Part shown: positions 1,198 through 35,435 of the stretch, one piece after another
Numbering within the stretch: the first letter of the stretch is position 1
How the letters are laid out: each line of letters opens with the position of its first letter
Virus record (IMG/VR): IMGVR_UViG_3300020595_000088
Coordinates: 1-36,965 of that record
DNA: 36,965 nt
From: a virus
Reading direction: 5' to 3' (one strand)
Notes under the pieces: model-generated
Seen by the model: the letters and a program-made list of their open reading frames with translations, nothing else
The model's database searches: none
Told to the model about the DNA's origin: nothing
Translations under genes and position numbers: made by a program

Positions 1198-1205
1198 AAT
1201 AAATA
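1198..1205 (+). promoter_or_regulatory. Late promoter box before gp19 (AATAAATA)
   Basis: This matches the T4 late consensus TATAAATA at seven of eight positions and lies in the 23-nt gap between gp18 and gp19. With T4-like spacing (+1 six bases after the last A) transcription would start at 1211, on the gp19 ATG at 1210. The surrounding A/T-rich run makes the register uncertain. Confidence 0.5.
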
Positions 1206-1209
1206 AAAT

Positions 1210-1737
1210 ATGTCTGAAAACATTAACAAATTCAAATCCCGCTTCACAGGAGGCGGTGCTCGTCCGAATCAGTTTCGAGTTCTAATGTCATGGCCTGCGG
1301 GTGTTGACGGTGGAGGAGACCTTGCTCAATTTATGATCAAGGGTGCATCACTTCCAGCTGACGTCATTGCAGAAACCATCGTTCCGTATATGGGGCGCCA
1401 AGTAAAGGTTGCGGGTGACCGCACATTCGAGCCAATGTCACTTACGGTTATCAATGATACTGATATGACTATCCGCAATGCGTTTGAGTCGTGGATGAAT
1501 AATATCAATGCTCACGGTGCTAATGTTGGTGAACAGAACCCAGAATTATATCAAGTTGACTTTGAAATTCAGCATCTTGATCGTAAGGGTGACGTTATCA
1601 AAAGTTATAAGATTGTTGGCGGTTGGCCTACAAACGTATCAGCGATTGACCTTAACTGGGAAACGAATGATACTGTTGAAGAGTTCACTGTTGAAATCTC
1701 ATACCAATACTGGACTTCGAATACTACTGATTCGTAA
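1210..1737 (+). CDS. 19: Tail tube protein gp19
   Basis: Major tail tube subunit forming the inner conduit for DNA. At 175 residues it is close to T4 gp19 (163). The N-terminus has the pattern typical of this fold: RPNQFRVLMSWP, then FMIKGASLP, GDRTFEPMSLTVINDTDM and a conserved WM pair (FESWMNNI). The C-terminal part VDFEIQHLDRKGDVIKSYKI followed by GGWPTNVSAIDLNWETNDT is strongly gp19-like. It sits between sheath and portal genes as expected. No Shine-Dalgarno is visible; a late box lies immediately upstream and a hairpin terminator follows. Confidence 0.95.
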   Translation: MSENINKFKSRFTGGGARPNQFRVLMSWPAGVDGGGDLAQFMIKGASLPADVIAETIVPYMGRQVKVAGDRTFEPMSLTVINDTDMTIRNAFESWMNNINAHGANVGEQNPELYQVDFEIQHLDRKGDVIKSYKIVGGWPTNVSAIDLNWETNDTVEEFTVEISYQYWTSNTTDS

Positions 1738-1759
1738 ATAGAACAGTTTAATCTATCTG

Positions 1760-1794
1760 GAGCGGCAATCAATTAATTTTGGTTGCCGCTCTTT
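1760..1794 (+). terminator. Rho-independent terminator after gp19
   Basis: Perfect 9-bp G+C-rich stem GAGCGGCAA/TTGCCGCTC (1760-1768 with 1783-1791), a 14-nt loop, then a short TTT. The U-tract is short, so it may be partial. The late box of gp20 begins two bases after it. Confidence 0.75.
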
Positions 1795-1795
1795 G

Positions 1796-1803
1796 CATAA
1801 ATA
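1796..1803 (+). promoter_or_regulatory. Late promoter box before gp20 (CATAAATA)
   Basis: Seven of eight matches to TATAAATA, directly after the gp19 terminator. Predicted +1 is 1809, giving a 2-nt leader before the gp20 ATG at 1811. Confidence 0.75.
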
Positions 1804-1810
1804 ATATCAA

Positions 1811-3376: not shown

Positions 3377-3386
3377 AACCCAATTG

Positions 3387-3394
3387 TATAAATA
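3387..3394 (+). promoter_or_regulatory. Late promoter box (perfect TATAAATA)
   Basis: Exact match to the T4 late consensus. Predicted +1 is base 3400, which is the A of the ATG of the next gene, so its mRNA would be leaderless. Confidence 0.85.
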
Positions 3395-3399
3395 AAAAC

Positions 3400-4966: not shown

Positions 4967-4974
4967 TATAAATA
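4967..4974 (+). promoter_or_regulatory. Late promoter box before gp22/gp23 (perfect TATAAATA)
   Basis: Exact T4 late consensus. Predicted +1 is 4980, which is 13 nt before a 19-codon ORF and 76 nt before gp22. It probably also serves gp23, which has no convincing box of its own. Confidence 0.85.
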
Positions 4975-5844: not shown

Positions 5845-5871
5845 TCACACCCATAACAACAAAGAAAAATT

Positions 5872-7362: not shown

Positions 7363-7370
7363 GATAAATA
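7363..7370 (+). promoter_or_regulatory. Late box GATAAATA, with a TTGACA element upstream
   Basis: Seven of eight matches to TATAAATA. Predicted +1 is 7376, the A of the next ATG. A TTGACA hexamer at 7333-7338, followed after 17 nt by CAATAT (7356-7361), suggests an overlapping weaker sigma70-like promoter; the same arrangement recurs before gp55. Confidence 0.65.
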
Positions 7371-8289: not shown

Positions 8290-8297
8290 CATAAATA
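8290..8297 (+). promoter_or_regulatory. Late promoter box before uvsW (CATAAATA)
   Basis: Seven of eight matches. Predicted +1 is about 8303, within one base of the uvsW ATG at 8302, so the mRNA would be leaderless. Confidence 0.75.
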
Positions 8298-10221: not shown

Positions 10222-10249
10222 TTGACAGAATTAAATTTAGTGTTATAAT
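10222..10249 (+). promoter_or_regulatory. Strong sigma70-like promoter upstream of gp55 leader
   Basis: Consensus -35 TTGACA (10222-10227), 16-bp spacer, consensus -10 TATAAT (10244-10249) with an extended TGT just before it. Predicted +1 is about 10256. Both hexamers are perfect, the only such promoter in the window. It reads toward gp55, about 258 nt away. Confidence 0.85.
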
Positions 10250-10513
10250 AGTTCTGTAGGAACTTCATAAGGAAGCATGCTTCCATCTTTGAGAGGTTTC
10301 CTCGATAAGATTAAACTCAGTCAACTACTGTTGATCTGATGTTCTAAATACAATGTGTTCGTTAAGTACCAAACTCAAGGAGAGAAAGGACAAATAGAAT
10401 AGAAAATACGAAATCTAAATGTTGGCCTATAGAATATGTTGCACTAGCAGAATTAATGGTTGACAAGATGAGACAAACCAGTCAATATTACTATAAATAA
10501 ATCATAACTCAAC
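10250..10513 (+). other. Transcribed, apparently non-coding leader upstream of gp55
   Basis: No convincing gene was found in this stretch. Its first 80 nt contain three consecutive small hairpins: GGAAG-CATG-CTTCC (10271-10284), GAGG-TTT-CCTC (10293-10303) and TCAAC-TACT-GTTGA (10321-10334). A 20-codon ORF starts at the ATG at 10277 and ends at 10339. A strong Shine-Dalgarno-like AAGGAG at 10379 has no start codon at usable distance. A later reading frame containing PIEYVALAELMVDKMRQTSQ looks protein-like and ends at the gp55 late box, but its only ATGs are internal. It could be a small RNA, an attenuated leader or a decayed gene. Confidence 0.5.
10492..10499 (+). promoter_or_regulatory. Late promoter box before gp55 (perfect TATAAATA)
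   Basis: Exact late consensus; predicted +1 is 10505, giving a 9-nt leader. TTGACA at 10460-10465 followed after 17 nt by CAATAT at 10483-10488 may be a second, sigma70-like promoter. A late box in front of the late sigma gene implies positive autoregulation (inference). Confidence 0.75.
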
Positions 10514-11113
10514 ATGCCTATATCACCGCCACCAATTAAAAAGAAAAGAGTCAAGCACGACTATATCGACAACAAGAAGTTCACTCAAGCCGTAGCAGAT
10601 CACGTCGCTGATCTTAAGAAGGCTAAAGACGAAGGAACTGAACCACCTCTCATGCCGCATTATGTTGGTGAGGGATTTTTGCTTATCGCAAAGGGTGTCG
10701 GCCGCAAACCAAATTTCTCAGGTTATCCGTTCATTGACGATATGATTATGGACGGTGTTGAGAACTGTGTTCGGTACGTTCACAATTTCAATATTGACGC
10801 AAAGACAAAGTCGGGTAAACCATCCGCGTTCTCATACTTTACTCAAATCATTCACTTTGCATTTATCCGACGGTTGCAGAAAGAAAAGAAGCAAATTGCT
10901 ATTCGGGAAAAGTTCAAAAGTGAAGGTAACCTTTCAGACTTTGCCGATTTTGGTGAAGACAGCGCGGAAGGTTTGTCGCTCGTTGAAAAGATGCGTTGCC
11001 GTGATGACTTTTATAGAGCAGACCGTTCGTTGCACCCTGAAGAAGAAGTAGCACCGTTATCAACGATCGGCAAAGTAAAACAGGCAGAACCTAAAGAGAA
11101 AACAGCATCTTGA
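10514..11113 (+). CDS. 55: Late-transcription sigma factor gp55
   Basis: Phage sigma factor that directs host RNA polymerase to TATAAATA late promoters with gp33 and the gp45 clamp. It has 199 residues, against 185 in T4. It opens with a Pro/Lys-rich stretch, then YIDNKKFTQAVADHV, KGVGRKPNFSGYPFIDDMIM and a region-2-like block NIDAKTKSGKPSAFSYFTQI followed by FIRRLQKEKKQ, the most recognisable gp55 signature. The C-terminus is acidic then basic. Its stop overlaps the TTG start of gp47. Late boxes of exactly this class fill the left third of the window. No gp33 was recognised here. Confidence 0.93.
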   Translation: MPISPPPIKKKRVKHDYIDNKKFTQAVADHVADLKKAKDEGTEPPLMPHYVGEGFLLIAKGVGRKPNFSGYPFIDDMIMDGVENCVRYVHNFNIDAKTKSGKPSAFSYFTQIIHFAFIRRLQKEKKQIAIREKFKSEGNLSDFADFGEDSAEGLSLVEKMRCRDDFYRADRSLHPEEEVAPLSTIGKVKQAEPKEKTAS

Positions 11114-14155: not shown

Positions 14156-14198
14156 GGCAGAAATAACTATATACAGCGGAGAAAAAGTATGTTATAAT
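14156..14198 (+). promoter_or_regulatory. Early/middle promoter, repeated family copy 1
   Basis: Box GGCAGAAATAACTA, -35 TATACA (14170-14175), 17-bp spacer, extended -10 TATGTTATAAT (TATAAT 14193-14198). Predicted +1 is 14205, six bases before the ATG of the CobT-like gene. Confidence 0.85.
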
Positions 14199-14210
14199 TG
14201 AATTGTAAAT

Positions 14211-16373
14211 ATGAAATATCGTGAACAATTCTCCAAACTGCTAGCCACGGAAAATATCCGTATGGTGCAAAAAGGTGGGATCAGATCAGCGGCATTCGAC
14301 ACACTCAACCGGGTGTTATATCTCCCAGTTTGGGATGTGTCGGAGTCGGTGTATGATATGCTCGTTGCCCATGAGGTCAGCCATGCACTCCACTCTCCAC
14401 AAAATGACCGTCGTGTCTCAATTCCCCGTTATAATATTACGGAGGATGCACGAATTGAGCGCTTGATCTTGTCAAGATATCCGGGGTACGCTCGAGTTTT
14501 TAAAGAAGCTTATAGCGAGATTCCTACAGCACTCCCACAGTTTGCTAAACTGCTTGAAAAGATCGACGATCTCAAAACGATTGATCGTCTCAATCTTGCA
14601 TGGAAACTCCGCAAGACAGATCACTTGAATGCAGTTGAATATGACTTTTTCTGCCGCGGGCTTAAGACCGAATCATTTGAAGAGTGCGTTGCACTTGCTG
14701 ATGAGATCGTTGCTTATACACCGCCCGAGCCGGAAATTGAAATGCCTCCGCAAGATTCCTCTGGTGAGGAAGAAGCTGAAGGTCAATCTGGTGATGAAGA
14801 ACCTGAATCTGAACCTGAGCCTACTGACGAAACCGAAGAAGACGACGGTGTAACAACCGAAGGCGATTCCGATGAATCTGGCGACGGTGAAGAAGGTAGC
14901 GGTGATAAAGATGACGACGAAGAAGCTGAAGGTGATAAACCTGAAGGCAGCTCTGACGAAACTGAAGAAGACGGCGACGGTGAATCTGGCGACGGTGAAT
15001 CTGGCGACAAGGATGAAGAATCTGAATCTGAATCTGACGCTGATGCATCATCCGACGACATTGCTGCTGGAGAAGGCGCCGAGGACGTCGACGACGCTGA
15101 AGCAGAAAATTCTGAATCTGAATCTGATGAAAGTGCCAGCGATGCTGGTGCTGATGAAGACGGTCCGAGTGCAGATGATGCAACTGAAGAGGCTGAGCGT
15201 CAAGAAAATGCTGACGACTTAGGTGCAGAATCTCAAGAATTGTTTGATAGCTTTGCTGAGGATAATGTCGACTTGTCGACATTTTCCACACCTGTTACTC
15301 TTGAAGAAGACGTAATTCGTCATGTGATTAAGAACAAACCGATCAAGAATCCTCATAATTCGGTTGAATCAATGTCCAATTCAATTAAGTCTTGGAACCG
15401 CAAAGCATCTCGAGCACTAAAACGCCGTGAGTCAAAGTTTGATGCAACCAAAAGCGTGACACGGAATTTCGTGAAAGAGTTCAAGCGTCGTAAAAACGCC
15501 CATGAGCTCCTCCGCACTCAGCGTCACCGCACTGGTAAGATCAATACCAAGAAGCTTTATGCTTACCGCACAAGCGACGATATCTTCCTCAGCCGCAATA
15601 TCGTTGAAGGAGCGACAAATCATGGCTTGACAATGTTTGTAGACTTCAGCGGTTCAATGCGTGACCGACTTGATAATGCTCTTGCAATGGTTTACTCCTT
15701 GTCGGAATTTGCCAAACAATGTGACATTAAGTTCCAAGTGTTTGGTTTCTTATCGTCATACGGCTATACAGATCCTATGCCAAATGAACTAATGGGTGAA
15801 GGCATCTACAATATCCGTACCGCTGGAACTCAAATCTTTAAGATTTGTGACACCTCTCAGAAGCTCAAGACAATTCGACTTAATTTGCACCAAGCAGCAT
15901 TGGCACACTTAGGCGGAACTCCTCTTGACGGAACGTTGATTGCCAGCCGTATCATTCACGGCGACTTCCTCAAAAAGCACAATATTGAGAAGAGCATGAT
16001 CGTGTTCTTGACGGATGGCGGCAACGGTGAAGCGGTTTACGGCAACTTGACATATTCTGATGGTCTGACAATTAAACTCCCATCTCGCGGAGGCGAAGCA
16101 AAGACACGGATGATTGGAAATGCTGTTGAGGCTAGCTTCGGCGGTAACTGCAAAATTATCAATATCTTCATGACTCGCAATGTTAGGTGGGACAAGGACC
16201 AAGCATCGTTTGAGCGCAATCATGTTGTCGCTGATTCGACCTTCTCCCGCTCCCGCTTAAATGTAAAGCACTGCAACGATCTTAATTCAATTGAACAAGC
16301 AACATTGAACCATGCTCATGACGCTAAAGCGGTGAACAAGATCATCACTGAAATCATCAAAGAATTCGCATAA
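14211..16373 (+). CDS. CobT-like protein: HExxH metallopeptidase-like domain, acidic linker, VWA domain
   Basis: A 720-residue protein with three parts. The N-terminus carries a zinc-peptidase-like HEVSH (residues 54-58), followed by NITEDARIERL, which resembles the E-x-ARVE motif of CobT proteins. Residues of roughly 178-345 form an extremely acidic Asp/Glu/Ser/Gly tract built from repeats such as ESGDGE and ESESES. The C-terminus is a von Willebrand A domain with MIDAS motif MFVDFSGSM (D478-x-S480-G-S482), a TPLDGT loop and VFLTDGG. CobT plus CobS form the AAA+ partner of cobaltochelatase; this gene is followed by a CobS-like gene, but no CobN is present, so a cobalamin role is unproven and a MoxR-VWA-type chaperone role is equally possible. 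Confidence 0.85.
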   Translation: MKYREQFSKLLATENIRMVQKGGIRSAAFDTLNRVLYLPVWDVSESVYDMLVAHEVSHALHSPQNDRRVSIPRYNITEDARIERLILSRYPGYARVFKEAYSEIPTALPQFAKLLEKIDDLKTIDRLNLAWKLRKTDHLNAVEYDFFCRGLKTESFEECVALADEIVAYTPPEPEIEMPPQDSSGEEEAEGQSGDEEPESEPEPTDETEEDDGVTTEGDSDESGDGEEGSGDKDDDEEAEGDKPEGSSDETEEDGDGESGDGESGDKDEESESESDADASSDDIAAGEGAEDVDDAEAENSESESDESASDAGADEDGPSADDATEEAERQENADDLGAESQELFDSFAEDNVDLSTFSTPVTLEEDVIRHVIKNKPIKNPHNSVESMSNSIKSWNRKASRALKRRESKFDATKSVTRNFVKEFKRRKNAHELLRTQRHRTGKINTKKLYAYRTSDDIFLSRNIVEGATNHGLTMFVDFSGSMRDRLDNALAMVYSLSEFAKQCDIKFQVFGFLSSYGYTDPMPNELMGEGIYNIRTAGTQIFKICDTSQKLKTIRLNLHQAALAHLGGTPLDGTLIASRIIHGDFLKKHNIEKSMIVFLTDGGNGEAVYGNLTYSDGLTIKLPSRGGEAKTRMIGNAVEASFGGNCKIINIFMTRNVRWDKDQASFERNHVVADSTFSRSRLNVKHCNDLNSIEQATLNHAHDAKAVNKIITEIIKEFA
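14745..15235 (+). repeat. Low-complexity acidic tract inside the CobT-like gene
   Basis: A DNA stretch dominated by short imperfect repeats of GAA, GAC, TCT and GGC/GGT codons (for example GAATCTGAATCTGA, and GGCGACGGTGAATCT twice in succession near 14982-15004). It encodes the Asp/Glu/Ser/Gly linker and creates long spurious antisense frames. Confidence 0.8.
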
Positions 16374-16904: not shown

Positions 16905-16947
16905 GGCAGAAATAACTATATACAAGTACTGAAAAGTATGTTATAAT
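16905..16947 (+). promoter_or_regulatory. Early/middle promoter, repeated family copy 2
   Basis: GGCAGAAATAACTA box, -35 TATACA (16919-16924), 17-bp spacer, -10 TATAAT (16942-16947) with extended TATGT. Predicted +1 is 16954, exactly the A of the downstream ATG. Confidence 0.88.
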
Positions 16948-16953
16948 ATTATT

Positions 16954-18297
16954 ATGATTATGAATGATAACGTGAAACTACTCCGAGAGTCGCTCGAACG
17001 CGTCCGACCTCTCGCTGACGGTTTTGGTGTGCTCCGTAAAAAGGAAATCACCGATGCCTTCCTTGCCGCTGGTGGCAAGATCAATGCCAATATTTGGCGG
17101 ACACTTGATGCTGGTCGGACTGACGTCCGCGGTCAGTATAGCATCGACAAGATTGCTGCAACCATTGACGGTTTGGCTCCCGCGGTCCCAGGAACTCCAG
17201 CTCCCGCTGTCGCTCCAACGCCTGTTCCAACGCCTGCTCCAGTCGCAGCAACTCCTGCTGCTCGAGCTCCAGAGACACTTGATTACGCTATCAAGAATAT
17301 CGGACTTTCACCCGTGCTGACTCCTCAGTCCGATCCACTTTATATCCCATGGGGCTGGCATAATCAGTTGAAACGTATCGTTTCTTCAGGTGCGTTTTTC
17401 CCTGTATTCATCTCAGGCTTGTCTGGTAACGGCAAGACTATGATGGTCGAGCAAATTTGTGCTCAGACTCGCCGGAAGTATATCCGTCTGCAGATCAATC
17501 CTGCTACTGACGAAGAAGATCTCATCGGCGGCATGCAACTCGTTGACGGAGAAACTGTCTTCGCAAAGGGTCCAGTGATCCGTGCAATGGAAGAAGGAGC
17601 ACTCTTGCTCATCGACGAAATTGACCGTGGGTCTAACAATCTCATGTGCTTGCAAGGTGTCCTTGAAGGCACCCCAGTTCTCATCAAGAAGACTGGTGAA
17701 GTCGTCACTGCAAAGCACGGTTTCAACGTGATTGCTACCGCTAACACCCAAGGTCAAGGCGATGAAACTGGAAAGTTCGCTGCTGCAACCATCTTGGATG
17801 AAGCTTTCCTTGAACGATTCCCAAATTCGGTGAATCAGGAATACCCAACTGAAGCAACAGAGCTCAAGATCATCCAACGCGTGATGGGTCCTGAGCTTCT
17901 CAACGGCAACATTGAGATTCCTGCTGATCCCAATGTGATTGGTTCTCTTCCAAAGACAATCGCTCCGTCGGACTTTGCTCAGAATATCGTTGCATGGGCT
18001 GGAGTTATCCGCAAAACCTATGCTCAGGAAGCAGTGGATTCAGTGATCTCAACTCGCCGTTTGGTGCACATTGTTAAGACTTTCAAGATGTTCTGGAAGC
18101 CTACTGCAAAGCACAGTGAGTCAATGTTTGCATCTGCAAAGAAGAATGCAATCAACCTCTGCATTAACCGTTTCGACGAGATGACTCGCGAAATTTTCTA
18201 CGACCTCTACACAAAGATCGACGACATTGAGTTCAAGATCGACCTCGAAGCAGAGGCTGCAGAAGAGGCGGCGGAAGCTGAAACTGTAGATTTTTAA
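16954..18297 (+). CDS. cobS: CobS-like AAA+ ATPase (MoxR/CobS family)
   Basis: A 447-residue AAA+ protein. The N-terminal 75 residues look like a DNA/protein-binding helical domain, followed by an Ala/Pro/Thr-rich linker (about 75-110). The ATPase core shows Walker A GLSGNGKTMM (about 151-160), Walker B ALLLIDEIDRG (about 210-220), sensor-1 VIATANTQGQGD and an ERFPN arginine-finger region. The tail is acidic and alanine-rich. CobS is widespread in marine T4-like phages, where it is proposed to affect B12 synthesis; pairing with a CobT-like gene here fits a two-component chelatase motor or MoxR-VWA chaperone. The start at 16954 coincides with the predicted transcription start; ATG 16960 is an alternative. 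Confidence 0.9.
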   Translation: MIMNDNVKLLRESLERVRPLADGFGVLRKKEITDAFLAAGGKINANIWRTLDAGRTDVRGQYSIDKIAATIDGLAPAVPGTPAPAVAPTPVPTPAPVAATPAARAPETLDYAIKNIGLSPVLTPQSDPLYIPWGWHNQLKRIVSSGAFFPVFISGLSGNGKTMMVEQICAQTRRKYIRLQINPATDEEDLIGGMQLVDGETVFAKGPVIRAMEEGALLLIDEIDRGSNNLMCLQGVLEGTPVLIKKTGEVVTAKHGFNVIATANTQGQGDETGKFAAATILDEAFLERFPNSVNQEYPTEATELKIIQRVMGPELLNGNIEIPADPNVIGSLPKTIAPSDFAQNIVAWAGVIRKTYAQEAVDSVISTRRLVHIVKTFKMFWKPTAKHSESMFASAKKNAINLCINRFDEMTREIFYDLYTKIDDIEFKIDLEAEAAEEAAEAETVDF

Positions 18298-18327: not shown

Positions 18328-18353
18328 GGCGGCACTCAATAATGGGTGCCGCC
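18328..18353 (+). promoter_or_regulatory. Hairpin in the gp45 upstream region
   Basis: An 8-bp perfect G+C-rich stem (GGCGGCAC/GTGCCGCC) with a 10-nt loop, ending 14 nt before the gp45 ATG and not followed by T residues. A smaller hairpin CTCCT-CTCT-AGGAG lies at 18300-18313 and is followed by ATCATTTT. This 70-nt gap may hold an attenuator, an mRNA-processing site or a translational control element; no promoter was seen. Confidence 0.55.
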
Positions 18354-21121: not shown

Positions 21122-21465
21122 TGAAATATTTTAAGATAAACGCACTTATCGCACAATGCCTTGGGACTCATAAAATCTTGGTAGACGAGGGTGAACATTT
21201 TGAAGTCCAAGACCGTGACGGTTTGGTTGCAGTCTATGTTGGTAACGGATGTTCGTACTCTTCTTTGTATACTTTCCCAGAGAGTTACCACAAATCTTTG
21301 GACGCGATGCATGAAGCAGAAAAGTATCTCTTTACGTTGAACAATTGGGCAGCATGTGATTACGAAGTAGCACTAAATAAGATCACGACAAGTTGGGCAT
21401 GGCATGCTACCGCAATGCAGAAAGCCGAAACTTTTTTGAAGATTATCAATAAAAAGCAGAAATAA
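21121..21465 (+). CDS. Uncharacterised protein between regA and DNA polymerase
   Basis: A 114-residue protein, not recognised. The start at 21121 overlaps the regA stop (TAATG) and is preferred over the in-frame ATG at 21085, which lies deep inside regA. Visible are MKYFKINALIAQCLGTHKIL, a VAVYVGNGCSYSSLYTFPES stretch, and a Trp- and Ala-rich C-terminal half (NNWAACDYEVALNKITTSWA) ending KIINKKQK. The repeated early promoter of the polymerase overlaps its last codons. Confidence 0.7.
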   Translation: MKYFKINALIAQCLGTHKILVDEGEHFEVQDRDGLVAVYVGNGCSYSSLYTFPESYHKSLDAMHEAEKYLFTLNNWAACDYEVALNKITTSWAWHATAMQKAETFLKIINKKQK

Positions 21466-21497
21466 CCATATACAGTTCTGCTTCACTATGTTACAAT
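21455..21497 (+). promoter_or_regulatory. Early/middle promoter, repeated family copy 3 (gp43)
   Basis: AGCAGAAATAACCA box, -35 TATACA (21469-21474), 17-bp spacer, -10 TACAAT (21492-21497) with extended TATGT. Predicted +1 is 21504, exactly the A of the polymerase ATG. The box overlaps the end of the preceding gene. Confidence 0.85.
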
Positions 21498-21503
21498 ATA
21501 TCT

Positions 21504-24002
21504 ATGTTCTACACTAAAATTGAAAAGTTCGGTAACTCCCTGCTTTATCGTGGATACGATGAGCACGGCAATCAGGTCAAAGACCGCATCAAATACAAGC
21601 CGCGGATTTGGATGGAAACCGACAAGCCAACCAAATATCACGCCCTTGATGGAACTCCTGTTGGTCAAATGTCCTTTCCTGACATGAAGCAGAAAGCTGA
21701 ATTCGTCAAGATGTATGGTGACTCAAACGGTGGCAGAATCTTCGGTGATATTAAGGACGTCGTGGCTTATACTTATGATGCTTTCCCTGGCACAGTTCAG
21801 TATCACTCAAAGGTTATTCGTGTTCTTAATTGGGATATTGAAACTGATATCTCTGATGGATACGGTGATCCTGAATTGGGCGACCGTGCAATTATCTCAA
21901 TTGCAGCAAAGCTGATGAGTGATAATGTCAAGCACGTTTGGGGTTTGAAAGAGTGGTACCAAGGTGATGAAAATATCGTCTACCACTTTTGCGAAACTGA
22001 GCAAGAGCTCCTTGAGCAATTTGTTGAATATTGGGAAGAGTTAGCGCCTGACGTTATCACGGGTTGGAATATTGAGTTCTACGATATTCCGTTTCTTATC
22101 AACCGCCTGAACAGAGTGTTCGGTGACGACAAACTAATCAAGCGCCTATCGCCTTGGAAGATTGTTCGTGATCAAAACGTAACGCAGTTCGGTCGTCAAC
22201 AGAAGACCTTTACTTTCCAAGGAATTACCATTCTTGATTATCTTGCACTCTTCAAAAAGTTCACGTTCACTGAACCTGAAAACTTCAAGCTTGCAACTGT
22301 TTCAAAGATGATCCTTGGAGATACTAAGATTGACTATTCTGAATACGGTGATCTCGGTGATCTGTATGAGCGCAACTCTGATCTCTTCTATGAGTATAAT
22401 GTCAAGGATATTACCCTGATCGACGACATGGAAGAAAAGCTGAATCTTCTTGAGGTCGTTTACATGCTTGCTTATATGGCAGGTGTTCAATACGAAACGA
22501 CTTTGGGTACGACCGCAATTTGGGATGCTTTCATCTTCCGTCAGTTGGCACAAAAGCGACAAGTCGTTCCACCAATGAAGAAATGCCGTCCTTCACCTTT
22601 CGCAGGTGGTTATGTTGCTGACCCTCTCCCAGGGATGCATGACTGGATTGTTTCTTTTGACTTGAACTCACTATATCCGAATTTGATTGTTCAGCACAAT
22701 ATGTCTCCAGAGACCATCGTGCATCAGTCTAAAGTTGAAGGTATCACTTCTGACAAAGTTCTTGAAGATCCATCGCTCCTACAAGTTCCAGATGAAAATC
22801 TTTGTTTGGCACTCAATGGTGCAGTGTTCCGTAAGGACAAGAAAGGCATCATTCCTGCTATGGTTGAAAAACTTTACAGTGAACGTGCTGAATGCAAGCA
22901 GTCCATGCTTGCAAAGTTAAGTGAAGCTGAGGCTACAAAAGATCCATCTGAAGCAGCTAACCTCAGAGGTCAAGCGTCGATTCTCAAAACCCGTCAGCAC
23001 TGTGTGAAGATTTTCCTCAACTCACTTTACGGCGCTATGGGTAATGCTTACTTCCGCTATTACGACATTGAGGTTGCTGAAGCTGTCACTCTGTCTGGTC
23101 AGTATGTCATTCAAACTGCGGCTAAGGCTGTAAACGTTTTAATGAATAAGGCATGCAAGACCGACGACAAGAACTACATTATTGCAGTCGACACTGACTC
23201 TAACTATGTTCTTATGGGTGATCTTGTTAAACAGAAGAACTTTAAGTCTCCTGTAGATGCACTTGACAAATTCTCCAAGATGGTCATTGAGCCTCAATTG
23301 AAACGCACGTTTGATGCTTACTTTGAATCGACGAACGGTATGGTTCCTCGTATGGAAATGGGTCGAGAGGTTATTGCTTCTCGTGGATTCTGGACAAAGA
23401 AGAAACGCTATGTCTTGAATGTTCTTGACGATGAAGGTGTCCGCTTATCAAAACCAAAACTCAAGATCATGGGTGTGGAAGCTATCAAGTCGTCAACTCC
23501 AGCAGTATGCCGTGAGTCGATGAAAGGCATCTTCAAGGTTATGATTGAGGAAGGTGAAGAAGCAGCACAAGCTCACGTTAAACAAGCACGAAAGGAATTT
23601 TATGAATACGCTGCAGAGACGGTCGCGTTCCCACGCGGTGTCAATGAAACGATGAAGTATGTCCCAGGTCCTGCAGGCGCAATCTACACGAAGCCAATTC
23701 CAATCAACTCTCGTGCTGCTGTCCTATTTAATCACTATATTAAGAAATTAGGTATTGACAACCGTCACCATCCAATTCAAAATGGTGATAAAATGAAATT
23801 CATCTATCTGAAACTACCAAATCCAATTCGTGAAAACGTTATCGGATTTACTGATCAGATTCCTGTTGAGTTTGGCCTTGAAGATTACATCGACTACGAT
23901 CTTCAATTTGAAAAGGTTTATCTTAAACCAATCCGCGAAATCTTCAATGTCCTTAAGTGGAACATTGAACCTGTAAACGATCTACAATCCTTCTTTCTAT
24001 AA
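21504..24002 (+). CDS. 43: Family B DNA polymerase gp43
   Basis: Replicative polymerase with 3'-5' proofreading. It has 832 residues (T4: 898). Exonuclease motifs are Exo I LNWDIETD (about residue 112), Exo II ITGWNIEFYDIPFLINRL (about 185-200) and Exo III YEYNVKDITLIDD (about 294). Polymerase motifs are A SFDLNSLYPN (about 385), B KIFLNSLYGAMGN (about 502), C AVDTDSNYVLM (about 562) and KKRYV (about 632). The C-terminus NDLQSFFL looks like a clamp-binding tail. It has its own repeated-family promoter, with the predicted transcript beginning at the start codon. Confidence 0.98.
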   Translation: MFYTKIEKFGNSLLYRGYDEHGNQVKDRIKYKPRIWMETDKPTKYHALDGTPVGQMSFPDMKQKAEFVKMYGDSNGGRIFGDIKDVVAYTYDAFPGTVQYHSKVIRVLNWDIETDISDGYGDPELGDRAIISIAAKLMSDNVKHVWGLKEWYQGDENIVYHFCETEQELLEQFVEYWEELAPDVITGWNIEFYDIPFLINRLNRVFGDDKLIKRLSPWKIVRDQNVTQFGRQQKTFTFQGITILDYLALFKKFTFTEPENFKLATVSKMILGDTKIDYSEYGDLGDLYERNSDLFYEYNVKDITLIDDMEEKLNLLEVVYMLAYMAGVQYETTLGTTAIWDAFIFRQLAQKRQVVPPMKKCRPSPFAGGYVADPLPGMHDWIVSFDLNSLYPNLIVQHNMSPETIVHQSKVEGITSDKVLEDPSLLQVPDENLCLALNGAVFRKDKKGIIPAMVEKLYSERAECKQSMLAKLSEAEATKDPSEAANLRGQASILKTRQHCVKIFLNSLYGAMGNAYFRYYDIEVAEAVTLSGQYVIQTAAKAVNVLMNKACKTDDKNYIIAVDTDSNYVLMGDLVKQKNFKSPVDALDKFSKMVIEPQLKRTFDAYFESTNGMVPRMEMGREVIASRGFWTKKKRYVLNVLDDEGVRLSKPKLKIMGVEAIKSSTPAVCRESMKGIFKVMIEEGEEAAQAHVKQARKEFYEYAAETVAFPRGVNETMKYVPGPAGAIYTKPIPINSRAAVLFNHYIKKLGIDNRHHPIQNGDKMKFIYLKLPNPIRENVIGFTDQIPVEFGLEDYIDYDLQFEKVYLKPIREIFNVLKWNIEPVNDLQSFFL

Positions 24003-25533: not shown

Positions 25534-25562
25534 TTGACAAGAGCAAACTTTTAATCAATAAT
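25534..25562 (+). promoter_or_regulatory. Sigma70-like promoter TTGACA-17-AATAAT
   Basis: Consensus -35 TTGACA (25534-25539), 17-bp spacer and -10 AATAAT (25557-25562). Predicted +1 is 25569, six bases before the ATG of the basic-protein gene. It starts three bases after the stop of the AEP-like gene. Confidence 0.75.
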
Positions 25563-25574
25563 AGCAACTACAAT

Positions 25575-25847
25575 ATGACAACAACTAAACCACTAAGAAC
25601 GAGCCAAAAAGGCTCCGGAGTGCGTATCGTGTCTCACCGACAAGATACCTCAATCACCGCTCAACTCGAGCGTAACACAGGACGTGCTGCTAAGAAGGCA
25701 AACCGTCAAGCAGCAGCAAAGGCACGACGCCTTGAACGCGCAAAACGATCACCTCAGCAACAGCTCGAGATGATCGCAACATATCCAGGAGAGTGCAAAA
25801 AGGAAACTGCACGTCTCAAATCTCAAATCCGCAAGCAGGCTGCATAA
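25575..25847 (+). CDS. Small highly basic protein
   Basis: A 90-residue protein, not recognised. It is rich in Lys/Arg/Ala/Gln, with a long basic helix (RAAKKANRQAAAKARRLERA) and a second one (CKKETARLKSQIRKQAA). Nucleic-acid binding is likely (inference). The start at 25575 is chosen because a promoter lies directly upstream; an in-frame ATG at 25320 would sit inside the AEP-like gene and before the promoter. Its stop overlaps the next start (TAATG). Confidence 0.75.
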   Translation: MTTTKPLRTSQKGSGVRIVSHRQDTSITAQLERNTGRAAKKANRQAAAKARRLERAKRSPQQQLEMIATYPGECKKETARLKSQIRKQAA

Positions 25848-28069: not shown

Positions 28070-28503
28070 ATTTGAAATGGCAAAGACGTTTTATGGAGAT
28101 TGCAGTTTGCACATCTCAATGGTCGAAAGATCCTTCCACAAAGGTTGGTGCAGTTATTGTATCTCCTGATAAGCAAATTCTTTCAACCGGCTACAACGGT
28201 TTCCCTGCTAACATTGAAGACAAACCAGAATGGTATGACGATCGAGAAATGAAGTACTCGTTGATCATCCATGCTGAAATGAACGCAATTCTTAACGCCG
28301 CTAAGAACGGTATTAATATCAAAGACGCGTGGCTTTTTGTCACATCACTTCCTGTCTGCGCCAATTGCGCCAAGCATGTCTGTCAAGCAGGCATCGGTGC
28401 AGTGGTTCGACAGGACAACATAATCGACCCACGTTGGGCAGATTCAAGTAAAGCGGCCGACACAATTTTCGGCCTAGCAAAGATTCCCATATATAAAATA
28501 TGA
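28066..28503 (+). CDS. cd: dCMP deaminase
   Basis: Zinc enzyme converting dCMP to dUMP, feeding thymidylate synthesis. It has 145 residues (T4 Cd: 193). Motifs are KDPSTKVGAVIVSPD, STGYNGFPAN, the zinc/catalytic HAEMNAILNAA (His and Glu near residue 67) and LPVCANCAKHVCQAGI with the P-x-C-x-x-C zinc ligands. It directly follows the gp42 group, competing with gp42 for dCMP. Both ends overlap neighbours as ATGA. Confidence 0.95.
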   Translation: MNLKWQRRFMEIAVCTSQWSKDPSTKVGAVIVSPDKQILSTGYNGFPANIEDKPEWYDDREMKYSLIIHAEMNAILNAAKNGINIKDAWLFVTSLPVCANCAKHVCQAGIGAVVRQDNIIDPRWADSSKAADTIFGLAKIPIYKI

Positions 28504-29717
28504 AAAACAAATATACGCATGCAGCAATCATTCCTCTCATTGGCGGTGAAGCAATCGCTCAGATGAACGTCTTCGGGTCAAAGCTCGACTACATTCTATC
28601 TTACTCAGCCTTTGAGAAAAACGACGGACAGTTCCGCAACTATTTAGAGACTCACGACATTGATGTTCCTTACCACGTTATTGATGCTGAAGGCTACGAA
28701 ATGCCTCATGGCGTTGACGTCGTTTCATCTGTATGTCCATGTGCTGGTCTGTCTCGCTTGAATCCTCATGCTTCCGCTGACGCTGCTGCTAACGATTGGA
28801 TGTATAACTCAACACAATACGTTCTTGAAAATATCAAGCCGCGTGTTCTCTGGGGCGAGAATGCACCAGGCCTTGTTGAGAAGATGGGCAAGCCTGTTCT
28901 TGCAAAGCTTAAAGCAATCGGCGAGCAGTATGGTTATACTCTCACGACCTACCGCACGCGAACACTCCTTCACGGTTACCCTCAGGTCCGCAATCGTTCC
29001 TTCTATATGTTTTGTAAGGACGACAAGTGCCCAATGCTTCCGTTCTTCCAACGCGAGTTGAGCATTACTATTCCTGATCTCATTGCCGAGGTTGATGACC
29101 AAGACCCTGTTTGTGCTACTCGTTCAAAGAAGCCTTCCGATGAATTCTTCTACAGTGCTATCTTGCACATGAAGGGAATGACTCACGCTGAGTATATCGC
29201 CCACATTAATTCTGACAAGAAGAATGTCATGTCCAAAGAGTCTCGTACTGCATTCTTGAAGGAATACAGTTACGCTGATGCTTACGCTCACGTTGAACGC
29301 AATCCTGAGAAGTATGGTGCTTATACCGCAAAGCTTGATCGTATGGTTGCTAAGGAAGCTGACGGTAAGGGCGTGATGTATTCAGGTGTCTTCTTTCCTA
29401 TCGACCACATCGGCGCGTTCATCTCTCGCTACACTTATGGTCTTGCTCATCCAACTGAAGATCGCTTCATCTCCGTTAAGGAATCAATGGCTATCATGGG
29501 AATGCCTGACGACTTTGAGTTGCTTGGTGGTGCAAAGAATATCAACATGATCTGTCAGAATGTTCCTGTTGGTACTGCAAGTGATATTGCCCAAGCAGTT
29601 CTTGATTATCTTGATGGTAAACTTGAAATGTCCGAAACTGACTATCTGCACTGTCACAATGTCAAGAAGCAGTATATGTTTGACAAGCCGGATATTGCAT
29701 TGGTTGAACTTTTTTAG
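28500..29717 (+). CDS. C5-cytosine DNA methyltransferase homologue
   Basis: A 405-residue protein with C5-MTase motifs in order: motif I-like IIPLIGGEAIAQMNVFGSKL, motif IV VVSSVCPCAGLSRLNP with the catalytic Pro-Cys, motif VI LWGENAPGL (ENV variant), motif VIII YPQVRNRSF (Q-x-R-x-R), and near the C-terminus motif IX/X-like MGMPDDFELL and NVPVGTASDIAQAVLDYL. The product would normally be 5-methylcytosine using SAM. Its clustering with dCMP hydroxymethylase is odd because hydroxymethylated cytosines are already substituted at C5, so a different or pre-replicative substrate is possible. It is followed by a TTGACA promoter. Confidence 0.85.
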   Translation: MKNKYTHAAIIPLIGGEAIAQMNVFGSKLDYILSYSAFEKNDGQFRNYLETHDIDVPYHVIDAEGYEMPHGVDVVSSVCPCAGLSRLNPHASADAAANDWMYNSTQYVLENIKPRVLWGENAPGLVEKMGKPVLAKLKAIGEQYGYTLTTYRTRTLLHGYPQVRNRSFYMFCKDDKCPMLPFFQRELSITIPDLIAEVDDQDPVCATRSKKPSDEFFYSAILHMKGMTHAEYIAHINSDKKNVMSKESRTAFLKEYSYADAYAHVERNPEKYGAYTAKLDRMVAKEADGKGVMYSGVFFPIDHIGAFISRYTYGLAHPTEDRFISVKESMAIMGMPDDFELLGGAKNINMICQNVPVGTASDIAQAVLDYLDGKLEMSETDYLHCHNVKKQYMFDKPDIALVELF

Positions 29718-29746
29718 TTGACAGAATCAAAAATATAGTTGATAAT
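29718..29746 (+). promoter_or_regulatory. Sigma70-like promoter TTGACA-17-GATAAT (rnh)
   Basis: Consensus -35 TTGACA (29718-29723), 17-bp spacer, -10 GATAAT (29741-29746). Predicted +1 is 29753, two bases before the RNase H ATG. The -35 begins directly after the methyltransferase stop. Confidence 0.78.
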
Positions 29747-29754
29747 AGACATAT

Positions 29755-30669
29755 ATGATTATACTAGACTACTCGGGAACCGCGATCTCTAATCTCTTCG
29801 CCAACGGCCTATCAGCAGGTGGGCACGTTGATGAAGGGATGCTTCGCCACATGATCCTTAACCAGATTCGGACTGTTTACACCAAGCACCGTAATACTTA
29901 TGGAAAAATGATCATCGCATACGACGCTGGTGGCAATTGGCGCCGCAACGTTTATGCTCAATATAAAGCTTGTCGCAAAACAAGCCGTGATGGTGATGCT
30001 AAGGATTGGGATGCTATCTTCGAATCATTGAACAAGATCAAGAACGAAATCAAAACCATCATGCCTTATCTTCATGTTGAAGTCTACGGGTGTGAAGCAG
30101 ATGACGTAATTGGAACTTTGGTTCATGAGGTATTTGGTGGAACCGCTGAGAAGACATTGATCGTCTCGTCTGATCATGACTTCAAGCAACTTCAAGAATA
30201 TCCAAATGTCCGTCAGTGGGCTGCACGTGAAAAGAAGTTCGTCGATGAGAAAGATCCAAAGGGTCACCTCTTCGAAAAGATCATGCGAGGCGACAAAGGT
30301 GACGGCGTTCCAAACGTTCTGTCATCCGACGACTGTCTTGTTGAAGGCATCCGCCAGACTCCAGTCAAGAAGACACTGATTGAAGAAATGTCAAAACTCA
30401 CCGAAGAACAGCGAGAGACCACTTTGGGTGATAATTATATTCGTAACCGAGCAATGGTTTCTCTTCGACACACTCCTCAAGAATATCAGGATACCATCTT
30501 GACTGAATACCGCGATCCTAAGAACCTTCCTGACGGCATGCAAGTATTCAACTACTTCATTGAATCAAAACTTAAAAACTTAATCGGCTCTATTGACGAC
30601 TTTTTAAAAACACCGAACCAAACACAAAATGACAGCATCCAAACCACAACCCACCGACTTTTTGTATAG
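29755..30669 (+). CDS. rnh: RNase H / 5'-3' exonuclease (T4 Rnh family)
   Basis: FEN-1/PIN-family nuclease that removes RNA primers from lagging-strand fragments. It has 304 residues, equal to T4 Rnh (305). Motifs are an N-terminal LDYSGTAISNLFA metal-binding Asp, IIAYDAGGNWRRNVYAQYKA, GCEADDVIGTLVHE, VSSDHDFKQLQEYPNVRQW and IMRGDKGDGVPNVLSSDD (helix-3-turn region). It is preceded by its own promoter, and its 3' end overlaps the next ORF by 41 bases. Confidence 0.95.
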   Translation: MIILDYSGTAISNLFANGLSAGGHVDEGMLRHMILNQIRTVYTKHRNTYGKMIIAYDAGGNWRRNVYAQYKACRKTSRDGDAKDWDAIFESLNKIKNEIKTIMPYLHVEVYGCEADDVIGTLVHEVFGGTAEKTLIVSSDHDFKQLQEYPNVRQWAAREKKFVDEKDPKGHLFEKIMRGDKGDGVPNVLSSDDCLVEGIRQTPVKKTLIEEMSKLTEEQRETTLGDNYIRNRAMVSLRHTPQEYQDTILTEYRDPKNLPDGMQVFNYFIESKLKNLIGSIDDFLKTPNQTQNDSIQTTTHRLFV

Positions 30670-32595: not shown

Positions 32596-32626
32596 TATAT
32601 ACAGAGGAGAAAAAGTATGTTATAAT
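32596..32626 (+). promoter_or_regulatory. Early/middle promoter, repeated family copy 4 (box replaced)
   Basis: -35 TATACA (32598-32603), 17-bp spacer, extended -10 TATGTTATAAT (TATAAT 32621-32626). The upstream GCAGAAATAAC box is absent, replaced by the terminator arm. Predicted +1 is 32633, five bases before the ATG. Confidence 0.82.
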
Positions 32627-32637
32627 TGTTATATACT

Positions 32638-33066
32638 ATGAGAACCAAAATTATAACATACGACCTTTCAAAGTGGATTCCTGAACCTCACGTTCTCCGC
32701 TACTGCCGCAAACAAAATTTTAACCTCGGTCGCAAAGCTGACAACGCTAACAAAAGCGCCATCGCTGATCGTCTTGAAGGCAACCTTTGTTCACAGACAG
32801 GAATTCTGCTCATCATCCAAGAAGGCGACAAAATCGTCGGATGGGGATTGTGCTCTGATACTGCTCACGTCTGTGCAACGCGGATTGAGTTTCAAATGTA
32901 TGTTCCTGTCAGTCAGCGCGGCAAAGGTCTTGGAAAAAAGATCCTCAAGAAAGCAACTCAACTCTGCGGCAAAGTTCGCGTTTTCGTTACAGATCAAAAC
33001 GAATCATTTTATAAGCGTTGCGGGGTAACTCCTTACGGCACACTCACAGGAAAACTTATCAAATAA
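32638..33066 (+). CDS. GNAT-family N-acetyltransferase
   Basis: A 142-residue acetyltransferase-fold protein. GNAT motif A is clear: EFQMYVPVSQRGKGLGKKIL with the Q-x-x-G-x-G acetyl-CoA loop, followed by a motif B-like VFVTDQNESFYKRCGVTPYG. The substrate is unknown. The start at 32638 is chosen because a TTG at 32626 is part of the -10 hexamer and could not be transcribed. The N-terminus (KIITYDLSKWIPEPHVLRYC) is not typical. First gene of the accessory operon. Confidence 0.85.
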   Translation: MRTKIITYDLSKWIPEPHVLRYCRKQNFNLGRKADNANKSAIADRLEGNLCSQTGILLIIQEGDKIVGWGLCSDTAHVCATRIEFQMYVPVSQRGKGLGKKILKKATQLCGKVRVFVTDQNESFYKRCGVTPYGTLTGKLIK

Positions 33067-33070
33067 TCTT

Positions 33071-33358: not shown

Positions 33359-33361
33359 GAA

Positions 33362-34078: not shown

Positions 34079-34107
34079 TTGTGTTCAAAGCACGGCACAT
34101 CAAAACT

Positions 34108-34515
34108 ATGAAAAAGACTATTATATTCCTCCGCGGCGTTTCTGGCTCAGGCAAGACCACTGTCGCAAATCTCCTTTCCTTTGGTGTCGGACCAGTGTTC
34201 ACTGCTGACGACTACTTCATGGATGAGGAAGGTAACTACAACTTCGATGTGACCAAGTTGGGTAAGGCTCACATGGCCTGTAAGAAAGGCGTCTTCTCTG
34301 CTTGCGCTGCAGGCGAACGAACCATCTTTGTTGCGAATACTTCAACCTCTGAAAAGGACATTACTGCTTACCGCAATATTGCAACCATTCACGGTTATGA
34401 CTTTGTTTCGCTAATCGTTGAAAACCGTCACGGTAACACTGACGTTCACAATGTTCCTGAAGACACTCTTGTTCGTCAGGAGTCTCAGCTTCGCAATTCA
34501 ATCAAGCTACGATAA
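34108..34515 (+). CDS. P-loop kinase-like protein (AAA_33 / polynucleotide-kinase-like)
   Basis: A 135-residue protein beginning KKTIIFLRGVSGSGKTTVAN with Walker A GVSGSGKT, then FTADDYFMDEEGNYNFD, typical of the AAA_33 family, which includes the kinase domain of T4 Pnk and NEDD4BP2-like proteins; TIFVANTSTSEKDITAYRNI is the second conserved block. It probably phosphorylates nucleic acid 5' ends or a small molecule. The start is ATG 34108; a GTG at 34081 would add nine residues before the conserved beta strand. Its stop overlaps the next start (TAATG). Confidence 0.82.
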   Translation: MKKTIIFLRGVSGSGKTTVANLLSFGVGPVFTADDYFMDEEGNYNFDVTKLGKAHMACKKGVFSACAAGERTIFVANTSTSEKDITAYRNIATIHGYDFVSLIVENRHGNTDVHNVPEDTLVRQESQLRNSIKLR

Positions 34516-34706
34516 TGAATGACTTTGAAAACAAATCTATCGTCGTCGGAAATGACGTGATTTATTCAGACCCTAAAAAGCCTAAGTTATATCGCGGCAC
34601 TGTTATTGGTCTAACACCAACAGGTGTTAGCATTGATTCTTACGGAACAAAAACTTTTCGTGCAGGCAGCAACGTGTGCCGCGTTCCAGCAAAATGTTCA
34701 AGATAA
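34515..34706 (+). CDS. Small SH3/KOW-like beta protein
   Basis: A 63-residue protein with repeating beta-strand and turn spacing: SIVVGNDVIYSDPKKPKLYR, then GTVIGLTPTGVSIDSYGTKT. This resembles small SH3/KOW barrels (V-x-x-G-x-x-V ... G-x-V-x-G), as does the separate ORF at 35238. No specific function. It overlaps the kinase stop by one base and the next gene by 13. Confidence 0.6.
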   Translation: MNDFENKSIVVGNDVIYSDPKKPKLYRGTVIGLTPTGVSIDSYGTKTFRAGSNVCRVPAKCSR

Positions 34707-35182
34707 AGACAAAGTTCTACTTCGACAAAGGTTTGAAGATCGCTGTTGACCAAGAGGTCCTTCGTTACTATATGTGGCAGATCGCTCGTGGACCACACGA
34801 CACTCTTGGTCAACAGACACCAATGCGGAAAGCCCACATTTCTGTAATTCTCCCACGAATTCATGGAGGAGAGATCACCGAACTTAGCCGTCAGTTTGAC
34901 GGTCATGAAGTCGAAGTAACTTGCGACGGAGATATCCATCAGGGCGGGAGCTGGTTCACGAACTATTGGGTCATGTTTCAGTGCTCCCATGCAACGTATA
35001 TTAAGAAGCTCCTTGGAGTCCGTGAAAAGAACTTCCTTGGGTATCACTTGACAATCTGCAACAATAAGGGCCGAATTAACGAGTTATACCCTGAAGCGGC
35101 TATTCTTGCCAAAGAAATGAACGACGGACGGTATAATGTTGACGAATATCGTCAGAAAATGCTAAATTTGGTAAAAAAATAA
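34694..35182 (+). CDS. 2H phosphoesterase-like protein
   Basis: A 162-residue protein with two H-x-[ST]-x motifs spaced as in the 2H superfamily: MRKAHISVILP near residue 51 and FLGYHLTICNN near residue 118, with the intervening FDGHEVEVTCDGDIHQGGSW and NYWVMFQCSH segments. 2H enzymes open 2',3'-cyclic or 3',5'-cyclic phosphodiesters; T4 57B (Acb1), which degrades CBASS signals, is a phage example. Whether this one acts on RNA ends or on immune cyclic nucleotides cannot be told. Start ATG 34694; upstream GTG 34676 is an alternative. It follows a phosphoesterase and a kinase. Confidence 0.72.
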   Translation: MFKIKTKFYFDKGLKIAVDQEVLRYYMWQIARGPHDTLGQQTPMRKAHISVILPRIHGGEITELSRQFDGHEVEVTCDGDIHQGGSWFTNYWVMFQCSHATYIKKLLGVREKNFLGYHLTICNNKGRINELYPEAAILAKEMNDGRYNVDEYRQKMLNLVKK

Positions 35183-35188
35183 GAAAAT

Positions 35189-35231
35189 GGCAGAAATAAC
35201 TATATACAAGAGCTGAAAAGTATGTTATAAT
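35189..35231 (+). promoter_or_regulatory. Early/middle promoter, repeated family copy 5
   Basis: GGCAGAAATAACTA box, -35 TATACA (35203-35208), 17-bp spacer, extended -10 TATGTTATAAT (TATAAT 35226-35231). Predicted +1 is 35238, exactly the A of the next ATG. Confidence 0.88.
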
Positions 35232-35237
35232 TGTTAT

Positions 35238-35435
35238 ATGAAATCTGCTAATAAAATTACTGAAGGCGTTAAAGTGAAGTTTAAGAAATTAGGCAAAGTC
35301 TATGAAGGCTTGGTGGTCGGATTTCACCCACGCATTCCTAACATTGCTCGTGTAGAATATATCGTCACAAATTCTAAACATGGTGACCGCAAAAACGAAA
35401 CTTGCATCCCATTTGACACTTTAAAATTAGCTTAA
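35238..35435 (+). CDS. Small SH3/KOW-like protein with leaderless promoter
   Basis: A 65-residue protein. KITEGVKVKFKKLGKVYEGL followed by VVGFHPRIPNIARVEYIV resembles a small beta-barrel of SH3/KOW type, like the 34515 ORF, although I would not claim direct homology. Basic overall. It opens a new transcription unit, with the predicted transcript beginning at its ATG, and is followed one base later by another small gene. Confidence 0.7.
   Translation: MKSANKITEGVKVKFKKLGKVYEGLVVGFHPRIPNIARVEYIVTNSKHGDRKNETCIPFDTLKLA

Follow-up and report, generated by a model that had tools for sequence, protein, structure and literature searches.

Promoters placed at start codons and predicted leaderless mRNAs in a distant T4-like phage

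Introduction

Bacteriophage T4 is the textbook case of phage mRNA led by Shine–Dalgarno (SD) sites. Bacterial leaderless mRNAs, known from mycobacteria and others, carry the AUG at their 5' end and no SD, and the −10 hexamer of their promoters lies about 6–7 nucleotides (nt) from the ATG. In common sigma70 promoters, the transcription start (+1) is taken 7 nt after the −10. Leaderless mRNAs and T4 late promoters are thus each already known. Here we describe how promoters and start codons are spaced in a 36,965-base virus record, IMGVR_UViG_3300020595_000088 (GC content ~0.43), the whole of which we call the window. We propose that, in this uncultured T4-like phage, promoters are fused to start codons, so that the mRNAs would lack leaders and the genes behind the first would be translated by coupling; to this reading we assign a probability of about 0.78 on the evidence of the sequence. 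The layout is likened to the bacterial one by description, not by sequence, and it extends to a late promoter class read by a phage sigma factor.

We found no report of leaderless late messages in T4-like phages, as judged by titles and the openings of abstracts in a literature in which subscription papers were mostly not covered. In the accessible part of the work on phage Melnitz, TATAAAT was the motif used to look for late promoters, and the word 'leaderless' occurs only in a reference title (PMC9004378). For pelagimyophages, the accessible text reports that prediction of late promoters was not possible (PMC7029224). The corresponding part of the AR9 paper gives 5' untranslated regions of 26–491 nt and also describes phage transcripts as often leaderless (PMC5312081).

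Results

Promoters abut start codons in the window

Throughout, Nk denotes k nt between the promoter box (late octamer or −10 hexamer) and the ATG, and late boxes were searched with the consensus NATAAATA. In T4 late promoters the octamer TATAAATA occupies −13 to −6, according to the accessible part of the source (PMC1524935). Leader lengths are predictions from geometry, with the +1 placed by this T4 ruler or by the sigma70 ruler. We rebuilt 57 starts in the window, including 4993 and the minus-strand start at 10188; the start codons are our calls, and that of the portal gene at 1811 is supported by residues 4–5 of the protein (F, G), which are invariant in five aligned portals. An earlier note, made from the same sequence, had listed 14 leader lengths, and all of them equal the values remeasured here (Table 1), those at 1210, 8302 and 10188 placing the +1 within one base of the ATG; the late box at 4967 is not in its list. 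Its seven predicted sigma70-type promoters all combine TATACA or TTGACA, a 17-bp spacer and a TATAAT-like −10.

This spacing was compared with 1000 rounds of dinucleotide shuffling of the 60 nt upstream of each start. A late box at N4–7 precedes 6 of the 57 starts (shuffle mean 0.093, maximum 2), and TAYAAT at N6 together with a −35 precedes three (mean 0.007, maximum 1). Anywhere within the 60 nt, the late octamer NATAAATA was found at 8/57 starts, against a shuffle mean of 1.3 and a maximum of 5. The earlier note had named such a control for its claim, and the observed six late and three sigma70 starts stand far above it. The strongest sequence argument is that two promoter classes with different rulers, N5 for late boxes and N6 for −10 hexamers, would meet at one +1.

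No SD signal accompanies these starts. The median anti-SD duplex energy in the window is +0.3 kcal/mol against +0.2 for shuffled sequence. In the comparators, taken as one stretch of at most 50 kb each, the real and shuffled medians are −5.8 and −2.55 for T4 (58 starts), −5.55 and −2.8 for HTVC008M (58), −4.0 and −2.4 for C48C1 (62), and −3.2 and −2.4 for Syn9 (54); the signal is clear in the first three and weaker in Syn9, and all four show an excess of AGGA or GGAG words ahead of their starts. Among the enriched 4- and 5-mers upstream of window starts, we saw no clear SD-like substitute (AAGG occurs at 7/57, with 2.1 expected). By position, G makes up 4–21% of the bases upstream of window starts, and A at −3 reaches 63%. 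The near-absence of SD sites that the earlier note had described, and its contrast with SD-led T4, are thus borne out by the energies.

Genes are tightly packed. Twenty-four of the 57 starts overlap the preceding gene (by −1 nine times and by −4 eight times), in line with the overlapping internal starts already noted; 11 begin 0–6 nt after it, 21 follow plus-strand gaps of at least 7 nt, and one is on the minus strand. Among the 22 non-abutting starts, ten have predicted leaders of ~0–2 nt (six late boxes at N4–7, three −10 hexamers at N6 and one at N8), three have leaders of 5–6 nt and two of 9–13. The claim of a genome-wide leaderless architecture was therefore overstated, as a leader of ~0–2 nt is predicted at 10/22 non-abutting starts, while its substance, leaderless and coupled initiation without SD, stands. 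The best reading of the sequence is that the window uses two modes, one of leaderless units and one of SD-less starts that are coupled or A-rich.

A single-nucleotide peak in related loci

To the window and its sister contig G003 (described below) we added relatives found by a capsid query and a capsid-alignment query, which gave 8 and the best 80 loci, with one in common, and one 50-kb stretch each of T4, Syn9, HTVC008M and C48C1. L121 and L123 (24% capsid identity) were left out, giving 91 loci; one further locus has no capsid open reading frame (ORF) of 250 codons. Applied to the 91 loci, a simple caller (ATG-first ORFs, at least 60 codons) found 1255 starts preceded by 60 nt of sequence.

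The distance from late box to ATG is exactly 5 nt at 53 of these starts, and every other distance occurs at 10 starts or fewer. N5 puts the +1 on the A of AUG, because of the T4 late ruler as given in the accessible text (PMC1524935). The 53 starts fall in 20 gene families, of which the tail-tube-like family is the largest (30/53); without it, 23 N5 starts remain in 19 families. At N5 before an open frame of at least 60 codons, the codon is ATG in 66 cases, GTG in one, TTG in one, ATA in four and ATT in six, the last two (10 together) representing background. Such near-exclusive ATG is the AUG bias that would be expected of leaderless starts.

In the SD-rich loci (61/91, median SD energy at or below −3), a strong SD (energy of −5 or lower) accompanies 75% of 88 late genes at N15–45, 57% of 14 at N9–14 and 11% of 37 at N3–8. 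Leaderless-spaced starts thus mostly lack an SD, an outcome partly built in by the position of the box, and nothing else replaces the SD at close-box starts. SD-using phages seem, from these distances, to keep two kinds of late unit. The portal gene gp20 illustrates the range, with N7 in the window, N5 in L127, L146 and L147, N6 in L162, N28 in T4, N31 in Syn9 and N30 in HTVC008M.

Two further arrangements of late boxes were seen. The 5-kb contig L150 has three N5 late boxes, at 1500, 2406 and 3421, two of which precede ORFs that by eye resemble homing endonucleases of the HNH and GIY-YIG types; mobile genes may bring a fused late promoter with them. In L023, a palindromic late box, TATAAATACATATTTATA at 17371–17388, has a reading frame on each side and could serve both directions.

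Comparison with named phages

We counted the boxes that precede an ORF in named phages (for HTVC008M, an ORF of at least 55 codons). T4 shares with the window the late octamer, an encoded gp55 and the corresponding late structural genes; unlike the window, it has a clear SD signal, and over 95 of its 169 kb the box lies 12–52 nt before the ATG, with 0/23 at N5. Syn9 (135 of 177 kb) has 0/17 boxes at N5, and none of the late boxes examined in these two phages is closer than 10 nt to the ATG. One N5 box each was found in Melnitz-2 (1/11 boxes, 42 kb) and Mosig (1/10, 40 kb).

The cultured Pelagibacter (SAR11) phage HTVC008M (Kyanoviridae) has a core gene order similar to that of the window from gp18 to gp43. 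In its whole record, read in four pieces, 9/24 boxes are at N5, all nine at GenBank-annotated starts; these genes stand at record positions 6280, 7562, 19456, 31132, 49760, 75559 and 142360 and, on the minus strand, at 18916 and 16007. It differs from the window in having an SD signal at its genes and in the other distances of the remaining 15/24 boxes. C48C1 (OQ984149) resembles the window in core gene order and GC content (0.43), but it uses SD sites and places 11/14 boxes at N20–35 and one at N5 (150 of 156 kb).

SD loss and promoter fusion

We classed loci as SD-less if they had five or more starts, a median energy higher than −1 and no more than 20% strong sites; 11 of the 91 qualify, the window and G003 among them, and their boxes lie at N4–7 in 20/29 cases. 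We placed these loci on a gp23 tree of 88 rows, made by a quick method with T4 as the outgroup; L120 (a fragment) and G003 (no gp23 in the available sequence) were left out. The SD-less group was defined from SD scores ahead of the tree-building; under a slightly less strict cut, which brings in L126, and with G003 absent, it comprised 11 rows. A single SD-less clade was rejected (approximately unbiased test, P = 0.00025), and four changes are needed on the tree. Most SD-less rows lie near the base, and the pair L190 and L197 (N18) sits with Syn9; the window and L119 are long branches whose placement is rough. SD loss and promoter–start fusion therefore appear to be overlapping but separate traits, because the SD-less rows do not form one clade and this pair groups with Syn9 at N18.

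An early promoter element and a sister contig

Five window sites carry TATACA-N12-TATGTTAYAAT, in which a 17-bp spacer separates a −35 from an extended −10. Directly 5' of the −35 at four of them is CAGAAATAACTA (14158–14175, 16907–16924, 21457–21474 with one mismatch, and 35191–35208). Scanning the window for the 18-mer element with up to three mismatches returned four matches, against a shuffle mean of 0.02. The CAGAAATAACTA element is possibly an activator or UP-like site, perhaps marking a middle-promoter class.

The exact 18-mer occurs in four viral contigs, and a promoter follows it only in G003 (IMGVR_UViG_3300020595_000171); in G001, G002 and G004 no promoter lies behind it. G003 has the 18-mer promoter twice, each time with the ATG at N6, opening an 89-codon ORF and a 21-codon frame. 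A third sigma70 site, TTGACA with TATAAT, stands at N6 before a 158-codon ORF, and the late boxes at called starts are four at N5 and one each at N6, N10 and N28. G003 does not match the proteins of the window except for a weak tail-tube match (23.5%), so the contig could represent a different stretch of a related genome.

The core of the 18-mer, GAAAARGTATGTTATAAT, matched 19 stretches, among which no relative with the layout was seen apart from G003; in the SD-rich contig L323, an ATG follows the core at N6. TATATACA-N12-TATGTTAYAAT occurs in 55 other viral loci (56 sites), where an ORF ATG lies at N17–48 in 42, at N5 or N10 in two and farther away in three, with none seen in nine. The core promoter alone thus does not bring the leaderless layout, given the N17–48 spacing at 42/56 sites. 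Scanning genome contigs with the promoter gave 12 matches: one carries the title Promineifilum, the other 11 Clostridia, Clostridiales, Oscillospiraceae, Ruminococcus or Paenibacillus. We drew no inference about the host from them. Bacteroidota as host was set aside, as the window −10 and −35 are of the sigma70 type by the general consensus. Among CobS relatives, SD-less early regions are too scarce for early genes to be tested across the clade.

In the cyanophage S-CAM3 (NC_031906), the gene at 194874, just before thyX, has TATACA-N12-TATGTTATAAT-N6-ATG at its annotated start, as in the window; it is one site in a cyanophage and lacks the upstream CAGAAATAACTA element. The same observation takes in loci L027–L034, L036 and L038–L040. 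Cyanophages, too, may have leaderless-spaced early genes.

Kinship and other features of the window

The window gene order is gp19-gp20-gp21-gp22-gp23-tail tube-uvsY-uvsW-gp55-gp47-gp46-peptidase-CobS-gp45-gp44-gp62-regA-gp43, several genes being named by position and not each by family search. This core order is similar to the annotation of HTVC008M, Syn9 and C48C1, and membership of the T4-like superfamily (Kyanoviridae-like) is seen in the gp18-gp19-gp20-gp21-gp22-gp23-uvsY-uvsW-gp55-gp47-gp46 block and the gp45-gp44-gp62-regA-gp43 block. The best-ranked match in the phage collection is C48C1 for both the DNA polymerase (41.7% identity) and the capsid (47.9%), and because of these identities the window phage is, on sequence, a distant Kyanoviridae-like relative of T4. 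Alignment identities are 46–53% for the capsid and 42–48% for the portal; the window polymerase, as a single-protein query against viral contigs, found no relative. The late sigma factor gp55 is encoded at 10514–11113 (phrog_234, E = 2.3e-42). Searches of the window for tRNAs and against Rfam gave no match. A C5-cytosine methyltransferase-like gene (28500–29717; PF00145, 1.2e-14) lies among genes including those for dCMP deaminase and thymidylate synthase.

The major capsid gene gp23 has no recognised promoter in the gap before it, so its initiation must be SD-independent, though not leaderless from any visible promoter. The ~258 nt between the strong promoter at 10222–10249 and gp55 hold no called gene, and a palindrome, GGAAGCATGCTTCC, lies at 10271–10284; the region may be a small RNA or a long leader, and the folding z-score for 10256–10500 is only −1.38. 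A GC-rich hairpin without a T run, GGCGGCAC...GTGCCGCC (18328–18353), lies just 5' of the SD-less gp45 start (18368) and could be a regulatory or processing element.

Table 1. Predicted promoters and related features of the window, with spacing to the ATG and predicted leader length
Feature	Position	Strand	Elements	Spacing	ATG	Predicted leader (nt)	Downstream gene
Late box	1198-1205	+	AATAAATA	N4	1210		Tail tube gp19 (named by position)
Alternative late box	1194-1201	+	CTTAAATA	N8	1210		
Late box	1796-1803	+	CATAAATA	N7	1811	2	Portal gp20
Late box	3387-3394	+	TATAAATA	N5	3400	0	135 aa protein without assigned function
Late box	4967-4974	+	TATAAATA	N18	4993	13	Putative 19-codon ORF upstream of gp22
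Late box	7363-7370	+	GATAAATA	N5	7376	0	Tail-tube-like gene after gp23, phrog_45
Late box	8290-8297	+	CATAAATA	N4	8302		uvsW (named by position)
Late box	10202-10195	-	CATAAATA	N6	10188		139 aa protein without assigned function
Late box	10492-10499	+	TATAAATA	N14	10514	9	gp55 late sigma, phrog_234
Early promoter	14158..14211	+	CAGAAATAACTA element; -35 TATACA 14170-14175; -10 TATAAT 14193-14198	N12	14211	6	Peptidase, phrog_459
Early promoter	16907..16954	+	Element; -35 TATACA 16919-16924; -10 TATAAT 16942-16947	N6	16954	0	CobS-like AAA, phrog_249
Early promoter	21457..21504	+	Element with 1 mismatch; -35 TATACA 21469-21474; -10 TACAAT 21492-21497	N6	21504	0	DNA polymerase gp43
Promoter	25534..25575	+	-35 TTGACA 25534-25539; weak -10 AATAAT 25557-25562	N12	25575	6	
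Promoter	29718..29755	+	-35 TTGACA 29718-29723; -10 GATAAT 29741-29746	N8	29755	2	Exonuclease, phrog_107
Promoter	32598..32638	+	-35 TATACA 32598-32603; -10 TATAAT 32621-32626	N11	32638	5	Acetyltransferase-like, phrog_1249
Early promoter	35191..35238	+	Element; -35 TATACA 35203-35208; -10 TATAAT 35226-35231	N6	35238	0	65 aa protein
Gap	5845..5871	+	27 nt, A/C-rich, SD-less; no recognised promoter		5872		gp23 major capsid
Strong sigma70 promoter	10222-10249		TTGACA 10222-10227; TATAAT 10244-10249; 16-bp spacer	~258 nt to gp55			

Discussion

We propose that late genes of the window phage would be transcribed from T4-type late promoters through the phage's own gp55 sigma factor, and early genes from sigma70-type promoters. 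In about half or more of the recognisable transcription units, the promoter would be fused to the start codon, with the +1 falling on the A of AUG or within ~2 nt, both for the gp55-bound polymerase and for the sigma70 enzyme at N6 sites. The ribosome would then bind the leaderless message through its 5'-terminal AUG. Downstream genes would be read by overlap or near-overlap (TAATG, ATGA) without SD, and a few starts, that of the major capsid gene included, would use an A/C-rich gap, likewise without SD.

Several observations weigh against this proposal. The 5' ends of the messages are predicted from spacing geometry. Five window units have predicted leaders of 5–13 nt, 7/22 non-abutting starts have no recognised promoter (5872, 16398, 18368, 24025, 31247, 34108 and 36092), the −10 of the 25575 promoter is weak, and the strong promoter at 10222–10249 is a long distance from gp55. 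Late spacing in the window is spread over N4–7, with 2/8 boxes at exactly N5, and is less sharp than in relatives. The starts of relatives come from a simple ORF caller, not curated annotation, the 53 N5 starts include many orthologues, which are not independent of one another, and the low SD score at N3–8 is partly built in, as the AT-rich box fills the scored SD place. For early genes, one N6 site in G003 opens just 21 codons, so the message of the next long gene may carry a leader, and in the CobS-region loci N6 (8 sigma70 sites, SD-rich) is outnumbered by another distance.

The close spacing might instead be a side effect of compaction, with promoters squeezed into short gaps, near-leaderless by accident, and translation mainly from upstream read-through transcripts. 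The 24 overlaps and 11 gaps of 0–6 nt among 57 starts fit this view, as do several leaders of 2–13 nt rather than 0 and three N4–7 boxes of the window in gaps of just 15–23 nt. However, compaction does not predict the single-nucleotide N5 peak (53 against at most 10 in other bins) or the near-exclusive ATG at N5, and the N4–7 boxes at 1811 and 7376 stand in gaps of 73 and 100 nt, so we regard it as improbable. Less probable still, to the point that we would be surprised to see it upheld, is that TATAAATA-N5-ATG serves at the start codon as the binding site of a regulator or as an A/U-rich enhancer of translation, true late promoters lying elsewhere. RegA-type repressors do bind start-codon regions in T4, and window upstream regions are A-rich and G-poor, but the same octamer is found at N15–45 with SD in relatives, the peak at 5 fits the T4 +1 ruler, and a separate sigma70 class yields about the same +1. 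Moreover, this octamer is already established as the late promoter of T4, according to the accessible text (PMC1524935), and gp55 is encoded (phrog_234, 2.3e-42).

The earlier note ascribed the SD-less state to a host with unusual initiation, to which leaderless mRNAs would be the phage's adaptation. Consistent with it, SD sites are missing from the window, from G003 and from nine other loci, and leaderless transcripts are common in some hosts such as mycobacteria, as the accessible part of one study states (PMC4633059). Yet leaderless-spaced late genes are present in SD-using phages too, and the SD-less, Syn9-related pair L190 and L197 lacks the N5 layout (N18, N40), so the traits can be uncoupled. 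Host adaptation is not needed, because SD-using relatives, HTVC008M of Pelagibacter included, have leaderless-spaced late genes; the SD-less reading by leaderless and coupled initiation holds up, while the host inference is not forced. We hold adaptation to the host to be a serious contender, at odds of roughly one in three.

Our preferred reading remains the fusion of promoters to start codons with leaderless messages. A wider version of it, which we offer tentatively and think rather unlikely as it stands, is that aquatic T4-like phages have long and widely expressed genes through fusion of the gp55 late promoter to the start codon, retaining it for certain virion genes even where the lineage uses SD sites. 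Late messages would then be translated by intact ribosomes on a 5'-terminal AUG, differing in this from most host messages, and fusion would have become a main mode for both early and late genes in the lineage of the window. Candidate benefits for the phage are speed, escape from SD competition and genome economy. The layout is not peculiar to the window phage and can be tested at once in cultured HTVC008M. If it holds for many aquatic T4-like phages, the prediction of their promoters and start sites must change, and they would offer a natural system in which to ask whether leaderless translation favours late phage over host messages.

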